From: Candidatus Pantoea carbekii
GTDB taxonomy: Bacteria; Pseudomonadota; Gammaproteobacteria; Enterobacterales; Enterobacteriaceae
NCBI RefSeq assembly: GCF_000971765.1
Contig: NZ_CP010907.1
Span: 62,001-126,000 of the forward strand
Direction: 5' to 3'
DNA length: 64,000 nucleotides
Below the pieces are notes generated by a model. The model had not been told where the DNA came from. It did no database searches and worked only from the letters and a program-made list of their open reading frames with translations. The position numbers and the translations under genes were made by a program. Of this stretch, positions 8,566 to 16,046 are shown piece by piece. The first letter of the stretch is position 1. Each line of letters begins with the position of its first letter.

Positions 8566-9048
8566 ATGACAAAAAAAAAATTGCGTCGGCTTGATACATG
8601 TATCATTGCTGTTAACAAGCGCGCTCATTATGAGTTTTTTATTGAGAAAGAATTGGAAGCAGGCATAGTATTATATGGATGGGAAGTCAAGGCACTACGT
8701 TCTTATAAAGCCAATATTAGCAATAGTTATATTTTATTACAAAATAATGAAGCTTATCTATTTGGTTCCACATTTGAACCGCTTTCGGTAGCTTCTTCTC
8801 ATATAACATGCGATTCGATTCGTAATCGTAAATTACTATTAAATAGAAGAGAACTTGACTTTCTTTATGGATCTATACATTATAAAGGTTATACCATTAT
8901 TGCATTATCACTTTATTGGAAAAATGCTTGGGCTAAACTAAAATTAGCCATTGCGCGTGGTAAAAAAGATTATGATAAACGTAATGATATTAAATATCGT
9001 GAATGGAATATTCAAAAAGAAAGAATTTTAAAAAAATTTCCCTATTGA
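8566..9048 (+). CDS. smpB: SsrA-binding protein SmpB
   Basis: SmpB binds tmRNA and brings it to stalled ribosomes for trans-translation. The 160 aa protein has the family length and conserved beta-barrel segments: [18 protein letters not shown] (near 18), [18 protein letters not shown] (near 38-55), [13 protein letters not shown] (near 90) and the [22 protein letters not shown] block (near 115-135). The basic C-terminal tail that mimics the codon-anticodon helix is present. Codons 2-5 contain a run of ten A's (8571-8580), a possible slippage site for polymerase. tmRNA begins 46 nt downstream on the same strand, as in E. coli. Confidence 0.97.
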
Positions 9049-9094: not shown

Positions 9095-9459
9095 GGGGCT
9101 GATAATGGATTCGACAAGATTTTCAAAATCTAAGGTGCATGCCAAGGTGCGGTGGGCCTTGTAAAAAACCGCAAAAGATAGTTGCAAAAAAAGAAAATTA
9201 CGCTTTAGCGGCCTAATATGCTGTGTAAAGCCCTTTCTTCCTAGCTTTTGCTCTTTAGGACGGGGTTAAAAGAAAGGTCAAAGATACTAAGAGCTCGCGT
9301 AGATGCCTTGCTTACGGTGGACACGTTAAATTTTTTCAGAAGCTAGTTTATGAAGCGCGTGTCTGTCCGCACTTCATGAGCAAAATTAAAGATTAGACTA
9401 AGCATGTAGTACTGAGGACGTAGGAATTTTGGACGCGGGTTCGACTCCCGCCAGTTCCA
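9095..9459 (+). ncRNA. ssrA: Transfer-messenger RNA (tmRNA, 10Sa RNA)
   Basis: tmRNA acts first as tRNA-Ala and then as mRNA to free stalled ribosomes and tag the nascent protein for proteolysis. The 5' end GGGGCTGATAATGGATTCGA and the 3' part (GGGTTCGACTCCCG T-arm, CAGTTCC acceptor) form the tRNA-like half; length is about 365 nt against 363 in E. coli. The tag frame runs from GCA at 9184 to TAA at 9214-9216 and encodes AKKENYALAA, differing from the E. coli ANDENYALAA only at positions 2 and 3; the degradation signal LAA is kept. The acceptor G-U type pair (CAGTTCC against GGGGCTG) differs from E. coli. The 3' CCA is not encoded (TGA follows the discriminator A), so it must be added by a nucleotidyltransferase. 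Confidence 0.97.
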
Positions 9460-10485: not shown

Positions 10486-11841
10486 ATGTTGTCTAAATTT
10501 AATTTTCATAAACACCAAAAATATCTTTCTCAACTTCCTAAAATATCACAATCTGTAGACGATATAAACATATTTTATTCACCTACAGAATTTTGTGAAA
10601 TTTTATTAAAAAAGATCTCTACAGCACAACAGCGTATTTGTATTACTGCATTATATTTAGAAAATGATCGCGCAGGTCGTAGAATAATGCAAGCACTATA
10701 TGTTGCTCGTCAGACACATCCAAAGATAGATATCAGTATTTGGGTAGATTGGCACCGCGCACAACGCAAAAGGATTGATATTGCACGTGGTCCAACAAAT
10801 GCTAATTGGTACTATAAAATATCTTCAAAATATTCAGATATTGCAATTCCAGTTTATGGTATACCAGTCAATACTCGTGAAGCACTTGGTGTGTTACACC
10901 TTAAAGGTATTATTATTGATGATATGCTACTATATAGTGGTGCTAACATAAATGATATGTACCTTCATCTGTGTGATAAATACCGATATGATCGTTACCA
11001 TTTAATTCGTAATGCATATCTTACTAATATCATGTACGAATGGATTTGTAAGCATCTGAAACGATCTGATGCAGTTAACCGTCTCGATCAATTTCAACAA
11101 CCTGATAATTTAAAATTTAAAAAAAAGGTTCGTCTATTTCGACAATATTTACAAAATGTTAACTATACTTTTATAAGCAATGTAGGCAATAAAACCTTAG
11201 CATTAACACCATTAGTTGGATTAGGTAAGAATAACATTATCAATAAGACCATCCTACATCTTGTATTATGTACTAAATATAAAATCATTCTTTGTACGCC
11301 TTATTTTAATCCACCCGCAATTTTAGTGCGTAAAATAATTCAAGTATTACGTCAAGGGAAAAAAGTAGAAATTATTGTAGGTGATAAAATAACTAACGAT
11401 TTTTACATTCCTGCTGATCAGAAATTTAAAATTATTTCTACTCTGCCTTATTTATATGAAATTAATTTGCGTCGTTTTCTTAGTCGTCTGCAATATTATA
11501 TTTCTAATCATCAACTTACTGTTAGAATATGGAAAGATTGTAATAACAGTTACCACCTCAAAGGTATTTGGGTTGATAAGACATGGATGATGATTACAGG
11601 AAACAATTTAAATCCTCGCGCTTGGCGATTAGATTTAGAAAATGCAGTACTAATACACGATCCTTTGCAAGAATTAGCTAAACAAAGAGAAAAAGAACTA
11701 ATAATAATTCGTAACAATACAACTATTCTTAAGCATTTCCGTGAACTCGAAAGCATATGTGAATATCCAGAAAAAGTACGTAAACTAATTCGTCGATTAC
11801 GTCGTATTAGTATTGATCGGTTAATAAAACGTTTAATTTAA
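10486..11841 (+). CDS. pssA: CDP-diacylglycerol-serine O-phosphatidyltransferase PssA
   Basis: PssA makes phosphatidylserine from CDP-diacylglycerol and serine, the step leading to phosphatidylethanolamine, on the inner face of the cytoplasmic membrane. At 451 aa it has exactly the E. coli length. As in other enterobacterial PssA proteins of the phospholipase D superfamily, there are two HxK motifs: HLKGIIIDD near residue 138 and HLKGIWVDK near 357, the latter followed by GNNLNPRAWRLDLEN. LVDWHRAQ-like and CTPYFNPPAILVRKI segments also match. CdsA (33134-33982) supplies its substrate. Psd is not in the window. The gene is displaced relative to E. coli, where it sits between ung and grpE near rrnG. 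Confidence 0.96.
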   Translation: MLSKFNFHKHQKYLSQLPKISQSVDDINIFYSPTEFCEILLKKISTAQQRICITALYLENDRAGRRIMQALYVARQTHPKIDISIWVDWHRAQRKRIDIARGPTNANWYYKISSKYSDIAIPVYGIPVNTREALGVLHLKGIIIDDMLLYSGANINDMYLHLCDKYRYDRYHLIRNAYLTNIMYEWICKHLKRSDAVNRLDQFQQPDNLKFKKKVRLFRQYLQNVNYTFISNVGNKTLALTPLVGLGKNNIINKTILHLVLCTKYKIILCTPYFNPPAILVRKIIQVLRQGKKVEIIVGDKITNDFYIPADQKFKIISTLPYLYEINLRRFLSRLQYYISNHQLTVRIWKDCNNSYHLKGIWVDKTWMMITGNNLNPRAWRLDLENAVLIHDPLQELAKQREKELIIIRNNTTILKHFRELESICEYPEKVRKLIRRLRRISIDRLIKRLI

Positions 11842-11971: not shown

Positions 11972-12541
11972 ATGGTTTCATTTACTGGAGTTATTTTGGC
12001 AGGCGGAAAAAGTAATAGAATGCAAGAAAAAGATAAAGGACTATTAATATTTCAACATAAACTACTGTATCAACATGTATTACAACGCTTTTACCCACAG
12101 GTTAATTACTTATTTATCAGCGCAAATCGTAATATTAATCATTATGAATCAAGCGGTTTTCCAGTCATTACCGATTCAATTCCATATTATCCTGGACCGC
12201 TAGCTGGAATGCTTAGTGGTTTGTATCATTCTCAAACGGAATGGGTTGCATTCTGTGCTTGTGATATGCCATTTATTCCAATTAATTATGTTAAACGATT
12301 ATGGGAACAGCGTGGTACTGCGCCCGCAGTATGGGTAAAATCCTTTATCAAAGATCATCCTACATTATCATTGGTACATAATTCTTTAAGAAATGCACTC
12401 CAAATTTTTCTATTGTGTGGTGAAAGACGTCTAAAAAAATTTCTATATCAGCAAGGTGGACACGCGGTCATCTTTTCTGATATAGAATCAGTTTTTAAAA
12501 ATATTAATACACCAAATGATTTAATAGAAAAAAGTGCATAG
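11972..12541 (+). CDS. mobA: Molybdenum cofactor guanylyltransferase MobA
   Basis: MobA attaches GMP to molybdopterin to form the guanine dinucleotide form of the molybdenum cofactor used by DMSO-reductase family enzymes. The 189 aa protein has the nucleotidyltransferase motif GVILAGGKSNRMQEKDKGLL at residues 6-25 and the CACDMPFIP metal-binding motif near 95, plus YYPGPLAGMLSGL and a C-terminal FKNINTPNDL matching E. coli. The partner gene mobB is not seen. In E. coli mobBA lies just beyond rrnA and points towards it; here mobA likewise points towards the spacer tRNAs, which supports a rearrangement through rRNA operons. No molybdoenzyme is encoded in this window, so its target is unknown. 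Confidence 0.92.
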   Translation: MVSFTGVILAGGKSNRMQEKDKGLLIFQHKLLYQHVLQRFYPQVNYLFISANRNINHYESSGFPVITDSIPYYPGPLAGMLSGLYHSQTEWVAFCACDMPFIPINYVKRLWEQRGTAPAVWVKSFIKDHPTLSLVHNSLRNALQIFLLCGERRLKKFLYQQGGHAVIFSDIESVFKNINTPNDLIEKSA

Positions 12542-12788
12542 AAAAAAATATTTTATCCGCCAATTAAACTATTTTAATCTAAATTCAATTTTTATCTTGC
12601 TAACATCACAATATTATACGTAACAATTGTGTTCAAAGATATATTATGCTCATTATTAAGATATCTATCAGAAAAGTTATGCAGTAATATTGTATTGTGT
12701 GCTTATAAGGTTAAAAGAAAAATCTTGCTAACCACAAATACAACATCAACATATTATATTATTAAATATATTGACAAGAAACGAACAA

Positions 12789-12861
12789 TGGAGCTAAGCG
12801 GGATCGAACCGCTGACCTCCTGCGTGCAAAGCAGGTGCTCTACCAATTGAGCTATAGCCCC
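12789..12861 (-). tRNA. tRNA-Ala (anticodon TGC)
   Basis: On the minus strand the sequence starts GGGGCTATAGCTCAATTGGT and folds as a normal alanine tRNA with CTTTGCACG in the anticodon loop region (anticodon at 12826-12828) and a T-arm GCGGTTCGATCCCGC. It closely matches the spacer tRNA-Ala of E. coli rRNA operons of the ile-ala type. The CCA end is not encoded; TTG follows the discriminator A. It lies 62 nt downstream of tRNA-Ile on the same strand, without the 23S gene that normally follows. Confidence 0.96.
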
Positions 12862-12923
12862 TCAATTTTAAATTTTTTAGACTATTCAATTTCATTTATA
12901 TTTTAAATGACAATACAAAATAC

Positions 12924-13000
12924 TGGTAGGCCTGAGTGGATTTGAACCACCGACCTCACCCTTATCAGGGGTGTGCTCTAACCAACTGAGCTACAAGCCT
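12924..13000 (-). tRNA. tRNA-Ile (anticodon GAT)
   Basis: The minus strand reads AGGCTTGTAGCTCAGTTGGT at the 5' end, with the anticodon GAT at 12964-12966, a T-arm GGTGGTTCAAATCCACT and a 3' end CCTACCA, so CCA is encoded, unlike in the adjacent tRNA-Ala. This is the usual first spacer tRNA of rRNA operons. Directly upstream the bases AGCCT could pair with the acceptor strand AGGCT, a small competing hairpin. gmhB lies 117 nt upstream and no 16S sequence intervenes. Confidence 0.96.
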
Positions 13001-13117
13001 GTTCAGGCTCTATAATAAAATTAATTTAATTCAATAATATTTTCATCAATAATTTCACTATAGCACCTATTGAAAAATATAAGATACAATAACCTTTATA
13101 ACAGTGCAAGAAAAAAT

Positions 13118-13699
13118 TCAATTTTTCCATTTATCAAAAGATTTTTTTTTAATATTTTCTGGTAGATCTGCTAAACTATTTATTATCCAATCCGCTGCTC
13201 TTTTTGCTTTATTTGTTATAGGTTGGCCAGATTTCACTAATACTTTAGTACCAATGCAAGCCATCTTTGCTGCTTGCATATCTTCAAGGGTGTCTCCAAC
13301 CATATAAGAAGCAGTCATATCAGTGTTTAAATGCCTTTGAGCAGCAATTAGCATTCCCGGTTTAGGTTTACGACATTCACATTTTTGACGGTAAATTTCT
13401 AATTTAGCTTCCGGCAAATGCGGGCAATAATAAATCCCATCAAGTATTATATCACAATGAGCAAGAGAGCGATACATCCATGCAGTGAGTGATAGAAATT
13501 GACTTTCGGTAAAAAGATTACGTGCAATACCAGATTGGTTGGTTACTAATACTAATGCAAAATTCATTTTTTTTAATGTTAGTAATGCATCAAGAGTACC
13601 ATGGATAAATTGAAAATTATCAATTGTGTGCACATAACCATAATCAACGTTCAAAGTTCCATCACGATCAAAAAAAATGGCAGGAACTTTATTTTTCAA
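13118..13699 (-). CDS. gmhB: D-glycero-beta-D-manno-heptose-1,7-bisphosphate 7-phosphatase GmhB
   Basis: GmhB removes the C7 phosphate of heptose bisphosphate on the way to ADP-heptose, the donor for the LPS inner core. The 193 aa protein is a HAD-superfamily phosphatase with [18 protein letters not shown] at residues 9-26, the motif II threonine in LVTNQSGIA (near 52-60) and motif [17 protein letters not shown] near 137. Cysteines in YYCPH and [12 protein letters not shown] form the expected structural zinc site. Upstream lie no recognisable metNIQ or rcsF genes (present in E. coli). Downstream come the spacer tRNAs, as in E. coli where rrnH follows gmhB. Confidence 0.94.
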
Positions 13700-14318: not shown

Positions 14319-16046
14319 ATGAGAACTAGTCAATATTTCCTATCTACTTTGAAAGAAATACCTTCCGATGCGGAAATTATTAGTCATAAACTGATGTTAC
14401 GCGCCGGTATGATTCGTAAATTAACTTGCGGTCTTTATATCTGGTTGCCAACAGGCATGCGTGTAGTTAGAAAAATAGAAAACATTATCCGTCAGGAAAT
14501 GAATAGGATCGGTGCAATAGAAATTTCAATGCCTATAGTTCAACCTACTGACTTATGGGAAGAAAGCGGTCGTTGTAAACAATATGGTCCCGAATTATTA
14601 AACATAAAAGATCGACATCAAAAATCATTTATTTTAGGTCCAACGCATGAAGAAGTAATAACAGATTTGTTGCGAAATGAGCTACGATCTTACAAACAAC
14701 TACCCCTTAATTTGTATCAAATTCAAACAAAATTTCGTGATGAAATACGTCCTCGTTTTGGAGTCATTCGCTCCCGAGAATTTATTATGAAAGATGCATA
14801 TTCTTTTCACACTTCACAAGAGTCACTTGAAGAAACTTATGAAGTCATGTCCTCCGCTTATAGTCAAATCTTTAAGCGTATGGGTTTAAATGTGCGTTTA
14901 GTACAAGCCGATACTGGCTCTATCGGTGGACATATGTCACATGAATTTCAAGTGCTAGCACAAAATGGAGAAGATTATATTATCTTCTCAGATCAATCAG
15001 ATTACGCTGCTAATATTGAGAAAGCTGAAGCTTTATCGCCTCTTGGTGACCGTCTGAAGGCTACTCAGAACATGACACTATTTGATACACCTAGTGTAAA
15101 AACAATTTCTGAATTAGTCAAACAATATCAAATACCTATTGAAAAAACTGTCAAAACGTTATTTGTAAAATCTACACAAAAACAAGGTAATTCTTTGGTT
15201 GCACTATTACTACGAGGTGATCATCACCTAAATACCGTTAAAGCTGAAAGATTAGATATTGTATCAACTCCGTTAGAAATGGCAACCGAAAAGCAAATTT
15301 ACACGTTGTTAGGTGCGAGTTTTGGTTCACTCGGTCCTGTGGGTTTAACTATTCCAGTAGTTGCTGATCGCACTGTAGCCAAAATTAGCGATTTTTGTGC
15401 TGGGGCTAATATTGATGGTAAACATCTTAAAGGAATTAATTGGGGACGTGATTTGCCAGAACCGCGCATAGAAGATATTCGAAATGTAGTCCAGGGTGAT
15501 CTCAGTCCGGACGGAAAAGGTATTTTACAAATTTCACGTGGTATTGAAGTAGCTCATATTTTTCAACTTGGTACTAAATATTCTAATATAATGAAAGCGA
15601 CTGTTCAAGATGAAAATGGTCATGAGAAAATTGTTATTATGGGTTGTTATGGCATCGGTATTACTCGCTTGGTAGCAGCGGCAATTGAGCAACATCACGA
15701 CAATCTAGGTATTACTTGGCCAACAGCACTTGCACCATTTGAAGTTGCTATTCTTCCTATAAATATGTACAAATCCTCTTTTCAGGTAAAAGCAGTAGCG
15801 GAAGAATTATATCAAACACTACGTTCAAAAGGTGTAGATGTTATTATTGACGATCGAAAAGAGCGTGTTGGTGTAATGTTTTCTGACATCGATCTAATAG
15901 GTATACCACATGTTATTATAATTAGCGATAAAAATTGTAATGTTAAAAATATTGAATACAAATCACGAAGCACTCATGAAACACAAATGATTAAAAAATG
16001 TCATATTATTGATTTTATTATTAATAAACTCAATAAACAAACCTAA
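14319..16046 (+). CDS. proS: Prolyl-tRNA synthetase ProS
   Basis: ProS charges tRNA-Pro with proline in the cytoplasm. The 575 aa protein matches the E. coli enzyme throughout and is of the bacterial type with an inserted editing domain. Class II motifs are visible: motif 2 around [21 protein letters not shown]-like sequence (near 140-158) and motif 3 in [17 protein letters not shown] (near 443). The editing insertion (roughly 225-400) contains the GANIDGKH segment. The anticodon-binding domain ends the protein with [18 protein letters not shown]. It starts at the second of two overlapping ATGs, matching the family N-terminus [13 protein letters not shown]. It converges with tilS. Confidence 0.97.

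Follow-up and report, generated by a model that had tools for sequence, protein, structure and literature searches.

Recombination between rRNA operons and the dismantling of such operons are already known from symbionts and host-adapted bacteria (PMC2957434, PMC7761764). In host-adapted Salmonella enterica, hybrid operons with the 5′ flank of one operon and the 3′ flank of another arise by crossovers between rRNA operons, and this is associated with a host-restricted life (PMC2957434). Symbionts with split rRNA operons, such as Buchnera with its 16S unit apart from the 23S gene, illustrate how AT-rich reduced genomes take their operons to pieces (PMC7761764). A third point of comparison is the E. 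coli delta7 rrn strains, in which tRNA genes that were embedded in rRNA operons become limiting once these operons are gone and must be kept separately. The lost spacer tRNAs are supplied in these strains by ptRNA67. The presence of ptRNA67 in delta7 rrn strains is documented (PMC10250234).

The locus described here lies in the genome of Candidatus Pantoea carbekii, the symbiont of the brown marmorated stink bug, which was reported as 1.151 Mb in one contig with 30.4% GC (PMC8032781). It resembles each of these systems and departs from each. In Salmonella enterica the operons are recombination sites of intact chromosomes, whereas here two hybrid operons appear to have been emptied, with their tRNA genes left behind (PMC2957434). 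In the Buchnera-type split the rRNA genes persist apart from each other, whereas here the rRNA of the site is gone, the spacer tRNAs stay and other operons remain elsewhere (PMC7761764). The delta7 strains are engineered, in contrast to the natural deletion that would have spared the tRNA genes in place here. A limited literature search returned no description of whole-operon erasure that leaves complementary tRNA scars.

We analyzed a window of 64 kb (GC content 30.6%), which corresponds to G000:C1:62001-126000 in a genome assembly of 1.197 Mb in five contigs with a main contig of 1,150,626 bp. By MobA, Pantoea species are the closest named relatives; comparison genomes are given below as G numbers or by name. 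The features of the site are as follows.

10486-11841, plus strand: pssA, usually found on the 3′ side of rrnG (pssA-yfiM-kgtP-rrfG); its junction with mobA here marks a second rearrangement.
11972-12541, plus strand: mobA, 3′ flank gene of rrnA; mobB is lost.
12542-12788, no strand assigned: gap between the tRNA genes and mobA; relatives have the Ala-23S spacer, 23S, 5S and mobB there.
12789-12861, minus strand: tRNA-Ala(TGC), intact by covariance score, CCA not encoded (ARAGORN and Rfam).
12862-12923, minus strand: AT-rich stretch of 62 nt between the Ile and Ala genes.
12924-13000, minus strand: tRNA-Ile(GAT), intact by covariance score, CCA encoded (ARAGORN and Rfam; the Rfam span is slightly shorter, 12927-13000).
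13001-13117, minus strand: gap of 117 nt between gmhB and the tRNA genes; relatives have P1, P2, the leader, 16S and the 16S-Ile spacer there.
13118-13699, minus strand: gmhB, 5′ flank gene of rrnH.
14319-16046, plus strand: proS, conserved neighbor on the gmhB side; the E. coli order proS...gmhB-rrnH is kept.

Along the minus strand gmhB comes first, followed by tRNA-Ile, tRNA-Ala, then mobA facing the tRNA genes, then pssA. The initial annotation had described an Ile(GAT)/Ala(TGC) pair on one strand, 62 nt apart and lacking rRNA genes, and both ARAGORN and Rfam confirmed it, the latter with 72.9 bits for tRNA-Ala and 71.5 bits for tRNA-Ile. The pair thus has the arrangement of an rRNA spacer pair, with tRNA-Ile(GAU) closely followed by tRNA-Ala(UGC) as in rrnH, rrnA and rrnD of E. 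coli. It does not lie between 16S and 23S genes, since neither the window nor the gaps hold any rRNA: Rfam found no match to an rRNA family in the 64 kb, where a tmRNA (9095-9459) is the sole RNA gene besides the two tRNAs. BLASTN with word size 7 of positions 12500-13150 against the E. coli 16S and 23S genes, the genome's own 23S and the 16S-23S region of another symbiont revealed no rRNA remnant; the single match was an AT-rich one of 14 nt. A search of both gaps, proposed by the initial annotation, therefore yielded nothing that resembles rRNA.

The flank genes carry the argument. Their naming follows the E. coli K-12 annotation of all seven rRNA operons, in which gmhB is the 5′ neighbor of rrsH and mobB-mobA are the 3′ neighbors of rrfA, just as the initial annotation had stated. 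Comparison of the gene order in relatives uncovered intact rRNA operons at both flanks, in orientations that match those seen here. An rRNA operon follows gmhB in E. coli, SOD02, IMH and eight further non-reduced relatives (G020, G102, G237, G134, G145, G252, G283 and G081). It is of the Ile-Ala type in E. coli and, judged by distance, in G081, G102, G134, G145, G237, G252 and G283, and of the Glu type in G020, SOD02 and IMH; no Ile match was found near gmhB in G043. The operon that precedes mobB-mobA is of the Glu type in G020, G102, SOD02 and haifensis, and of the Ile-Ala type in IMH, in E. coli and, again by distance, in G043. Both sides are Ile-Ala in E. coli, whereas the complete genome of Pantoea sp. 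SOD02 (GmhB 69% identical) has tRNA-Glu in both operons. Likewise, rrnG is of the Ile-Ala type in G020 and of the Glu type in E. coli, while rrnD is Ile-Ala in both. The spacer type varies by locus, and the type does not identify the locus.

No decayed rRNA sequence was detected at the gmhB-mobA site, whereas in the reduced genome G013 the corresponding mobA flank does hold such sequence. Genes there are arranged as dsbA - mobA - degenerate 16S - hemG - purH (L142:9908-10922, G013:C4). The 16S pseudogene of about 1.0 kb consists of three blocks that are 74-85% identical to E. coli and has internal deletions; it scores 458 bits compared to 1563 for the intact G013 copy. This shows an rRNA operon in decay beside mobA. 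A PolA tree, which has long branches, did not resolve G013 as sister of the genome studied here. In close Pantoea, hsrA rather than hemG lies 5′ of the mobA operon; hemG has this position in G102 and G013.

Three rRNA operons persist elsewhere in the genome. Its 16S genes and 16S-23S spacers are N-masked in the sequence used here, the former in blocks of 2.5 kb, so that a 16S search finds nothing, and the operons were located by their visible parts. The three masked spacers fall at about 647.5-652.5k, 930.0-932.5k and 1000.0-1002.5k of C1.

C1 ~1000-1005k: operon at the rrnD site, aroE - [masked 16S] - 23S - 5S - accC-accB.
C1 ~930-935k: hybrid operon with rrnG 5′ and rrnC 3′ flanks, clpB - 16S - 23S - tRNA-Trp - ilvD-ilvA; the first 63 nt of 16S are visible.
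C1 ~645.5-652k: hybrid operon with rrnA 5′ and rrnH 3′ flanks, tatAB - [masked] - 23S - 5S - rnhA - dnaQ - tRNA-Asp.

The location of the remaining rRNA genes, which the initial annotation had named as a check, thus revealed, with the spacers masked, the counterpart of the site under study: the tat...23S-5S-rnhA-dnaQ operon (stretch from tatB to 23S masked) is the reciprocal of gmhB-mobA. As two of the three operons are hybrids (tat/rnhA and clpB/Trp-ilv), recombination between rRNA genes occurred repeatedly in this genome. The clpB/ilv operon has neither 5S nor tRNA-Asp between 23S and tRNA-Trp (L039:11762-11982, G000:C1 ~934.8k), which suggests that its decay proceeds from the 3′ side; for the three 23S genes, no more than two 5S genes were recovered. 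Upstream of ilvD we noted residual sequence resembling ilvE (31% identity, L039:12920-13693). The loss of ilvE in P. carbekii has reportedly been published, and the residual sequence fits it.

A second scar was found at C1:748829, where an intact tRNA-Ile(GAT) with encoded CCA lies between purH, the 5′ flank of rrnE, and dsbA. This tRNA-Ile gene and that of the window are variants that differ in the D-loop and at the 5:68 pair. About 70 nt past the gene at C1:748829 stands a tRNA-Ala pseudogene that has lost its anticodon arm (L041 about 8977-9027). Its alignment with the tRNA-Ala of the window scored 58, compared to a maximum of 31.5 in 1000 shuffles; among 304 control tiles three exceeded 37.5, all top-scoring and all in stretches with real tRNA genes. 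The order purH - tRNA-Ile - pseudo-Ala - dsbA thus indicates that a second Ile-Ala operon vanished there and that its Ala copy was not maintained. Close by, polA is split into two overlapping open reading frames of 310 aa (5′ nuclease) and 648 aa (polymerase) at L041:10563-13371 (G000:C1 ~750.6-753.4k); tblastn matches PolA as two separate parts in the reduced genomes G239 and G074 as well.

Taken together, these data argue that the tRNA pair is the residue of a hybrid rRNA operon flanked by gmhB (rrnH) on the 5′ side and by mobA (rrnA type) on the 3′ side, a reading to which we assign a probability of roughly 0.83. Recombination between long identical rRNA genes would have joined the gmhB flank to the mobA flank; as the genome shrank and most rRNA operons became dispensable, 16S, 23S and 5S would have been deleted here without a trace. 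Since the site retains no remnant of rRNA or spacer, the former presence of an operon rests on the flanks and on the parallels. The initial annotation had envisaged exactly such a vanished hybrid of rrnH and rrnA, and the operons at the relatives' flanks as well as the reciprocal tat/rnhA hybrid speak for that part. Its further assumption that both parents were of the Ile-Ala type did not hold, given tRNA-Glu at both flanks in SOD02 and at gmhB in G020 and IMH. It is also unnecessary, because a crossover in 23S or 5S, downstream of tRNA-Ala, suffices. Moreover, with both operons Glu and hsrA 5′ of the mobA operon in SOD02, a single exchange between rrnH and rrnA is not the sole route.

The second scar, together with the displaced pssA beside mobA, neither of which the initial annotation had noted, calls for at least one further rearrangement, and pssA beside mobA and dsbA beside purH require a further break. 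Undoing one inversion whose ends lie at the pssA|mobA and pseudo-Ala|dsbA junctions would restore gmhB-tRNAs-mobA-dsbA and purH-tRNAs-(rRNA 3′ end)-pssA. Both are ordinary kinds of rRNA-operon flanks, and a minimal history can thus be proposed: crossovers between operons would have given the gmhB/mobA, tat/rnhA, clpB/Trp-ilv and purH/pssA hybrids, two of these would have lost their rRNA, and one inversion would then have joined their 3′ sides. Other orders of events are possible.

The same displaced pssA invites a different derivation, in which a gmhB-16S-Ile-Ala-23S-5S-pssA hybrid, with its tRNA pair from rrnG, arose before mobA was brought in by a rearrangement that did not involve rRNA. In E. 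coli and G020 pssA flanks rrnG on the 3′ side, and here it adjoins mobA; rrnG carries Ile-Ala in G020, where the gmhB operon has Glu as it does in SOD02 and IMH. However, it is mobA and not pssA that stands directly against the tRNA genes, oriented as beside rRNA operons; reversal of the single inversion would bring mobA back to dsbA and place pssA opposite an rRNA 3′ end; and rrnG is of the Glu type in E. coli, so that the type does not identify the locus. We regard this derivation as possible but doubtful. Alternatively, the pair could be a duplicated or transposed spacer fragment inserted between gmhB and mobA rather than what is left of an operon at that position; the complete absence of rRNA sequence would agree with this. 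Yet in relatives both flank genes border rRNA operons with exactly the orientations seen here, another pair of the same order occupies a second site of rRNA-flank genes (purH, dsbA), and the same kind of scar exists in three other reduced genomes, which makes an independent locus very improbable. An assembly artefact is hardly credible: rRNA operons often break assemblies, but the long repeat is no longer at the site, and the main contig is a single piece of 1,150,626 bp, compared to a reported chromosome of 1.151 Mb in one contig (PMC8032781).

As the residue of a hybrid operon, the pair would now form a stand-alone tRNA unit that keeps its old direction. The initial annotation had argued that it needs a promoter of its own. 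This is plausible. The gmhB-tRNA gap contains CTTGCACT...TATCTT, which resembles the rrn P1 that relatives carry behind gmhB, but the match was not significant in alignments against shuffled sequence (p 0.08-0.9) and a consensus scan of the minus strand detected no promoter 5′ of tRNA-Ile. Transcription from a P1 remnant and read-through from gmhB on the same strand are equally possible. The gap between the tRNA genes and mobA holds neither an rRNA remnant nor a predicted terminator. In local alignments of the three gaps with relatives' rRNA, leaders, spacers and P1, nothing survived correction for multiple testing; the best single value, p 0.01 for the downstream gap against a 16S-Ile spacer, was judged to be chance. 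Two copies of ATCTTGCTAAC, directly repeated at a distance of about 125 nt, occur in the tRNA-mobA gap, in the region of 12596 and 12722.

The retention of the pair can be related to the tRNA supply of the genome. The tRNA-Ala(TGC) of the window is the only intact one seen in the unmasked genome; besides it, the visible alanine tRNAs comprise GGC alone. Of the 920 alanine codons in the open reading frames of the window, 472, about half, are GCA or GCG, so that by the usual decoding rules tRNA-Ala(TGC) must be kept. Among the 37 visible tRNAs, all of them named, there is no tRNA-Glu, which must therefore sit in a masked spacer. The 16S-23S spacers of two surviving operons are about 375 and 379 nt long, as derived from the visible 16S start, a shared leader motif and the 23S positions with an assumed 16S length of 1541. 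Spacers of the Glu type measure 364-379 nt (G020 mobA operon, G102, haifensis, SOD02) and those of the Ile-Ala type 505-579 nt (G020, IMH), with overlap through E. coli Glu spacers of up to ~440 nt and the G007 Ile-Ala spacer of ~330 nt. From spacer length and the lack of a visible tRNA-Glu, the surviving operons are most likely of the Glu type, an indication rather than proof, and together with the lack of another intact tRNA-Ala(TGC) this would explain why the pair was kept. Were the survivors also of the Ile-Ala type, the orphan tRNAs would be redundant and on their way out, which could account for the decay of the second Ala copy and would agree with the Ile-Ala type of rrnD in E. coli and G020. 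Further Ile-Ala copies could indeed lie in the masked 16S and spacer sequence. However, outside the masked spacers no tRNA-Glu can be seen, the spacers of two survivors (~375-380 nt) match the Glu type in length, and the tRNA-Ala of the window still scores 72.9 bits and retains G3:U70, all of which makes redundancy unlikely.

Most tRNA genes of the genome do not encode the 3′ CCA, and a CCA-adding enzyme must therefore be needed; both tRNA-Ile(GAT) genes do encode it. The count of 10 in 37 CCA-encoding genes is an overcount, as an acceptor end of ...CC-A mimics CCA (for example in tRNA-Ala). Non-encoded CCA in most tRNA genes is unusual for enterobacteria.

Scars of the same kind were found in other reduced genomes. 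The single SSU match of G015 falls within an operon murI-16S-Glu-23S-5S, and the Ile-Ala pair of this genome lies ~359 kb away, with Asp-Trp ~950 nt beyond. The one SSU match of G021 belongs to murI-16S-Glu-23S-murB, and its orphan Ile-Ala pair stands beside rnhA-dnaQ-Asp (rrnH 3′ side). Conversely, the one operon in the whole genome of G007 has an Ile-Ala spacer, and a separate Glu-Asp-Trp cluster represents the tRNAs of rrnC with no rRNA. In all three full cases the orphan set is thus the type missing from the surviving operon. As at the gmhB-mobA site, spacer and distal tRNAs outlive the total loss of rRNA; the three differ in that G021 keeps the rrnH 3′ side, whereas G015 and G007 keep the rrnC tail (Asp-Trp). 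In G010, G006 and G018 we found 16S-Ile-Ala with no 23S behind it within the stretch read. BLAST matches of the AT-rich spacer of the G015 operon to several loci were discarded as low complexity.

These cases lead us to favor, with some reservation, a rule for shrinking enterobacterial genomes by which the orphan tRNA set that has to persist depends on the spacer type of those operons that survive longest. If this is true, scars are of the Ile-Ala type where the survivors are Glu and of the Glu or Glu-Asp-Trp type where the survivors are Ile-Ala, and they record the number of lost operons and past rRNA-mediated rearrangements. Operon-embedded tRNA genes would resist deletion and give the site, orientation and spacer type of a lost operon, which would make the shedding of rRNA operons by multi-operon bacteria readable during genome reduction. 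Combined with operon flanks, scars may make it possible to retrace the succession of rRNA-mediated rearrangements, and they would predict which tRNA genes of a reduced genome turned single-copy and essential. In G074, a 0.8-Mb symbiont with two full 16S genes, partial 16S matches were seen at C1:32007-32506 and 231758-232183, with scores of 376.6 bits (positions 9-546) and 27.5 bits, respectively, and are perhaps further rRNA pseudogenes.
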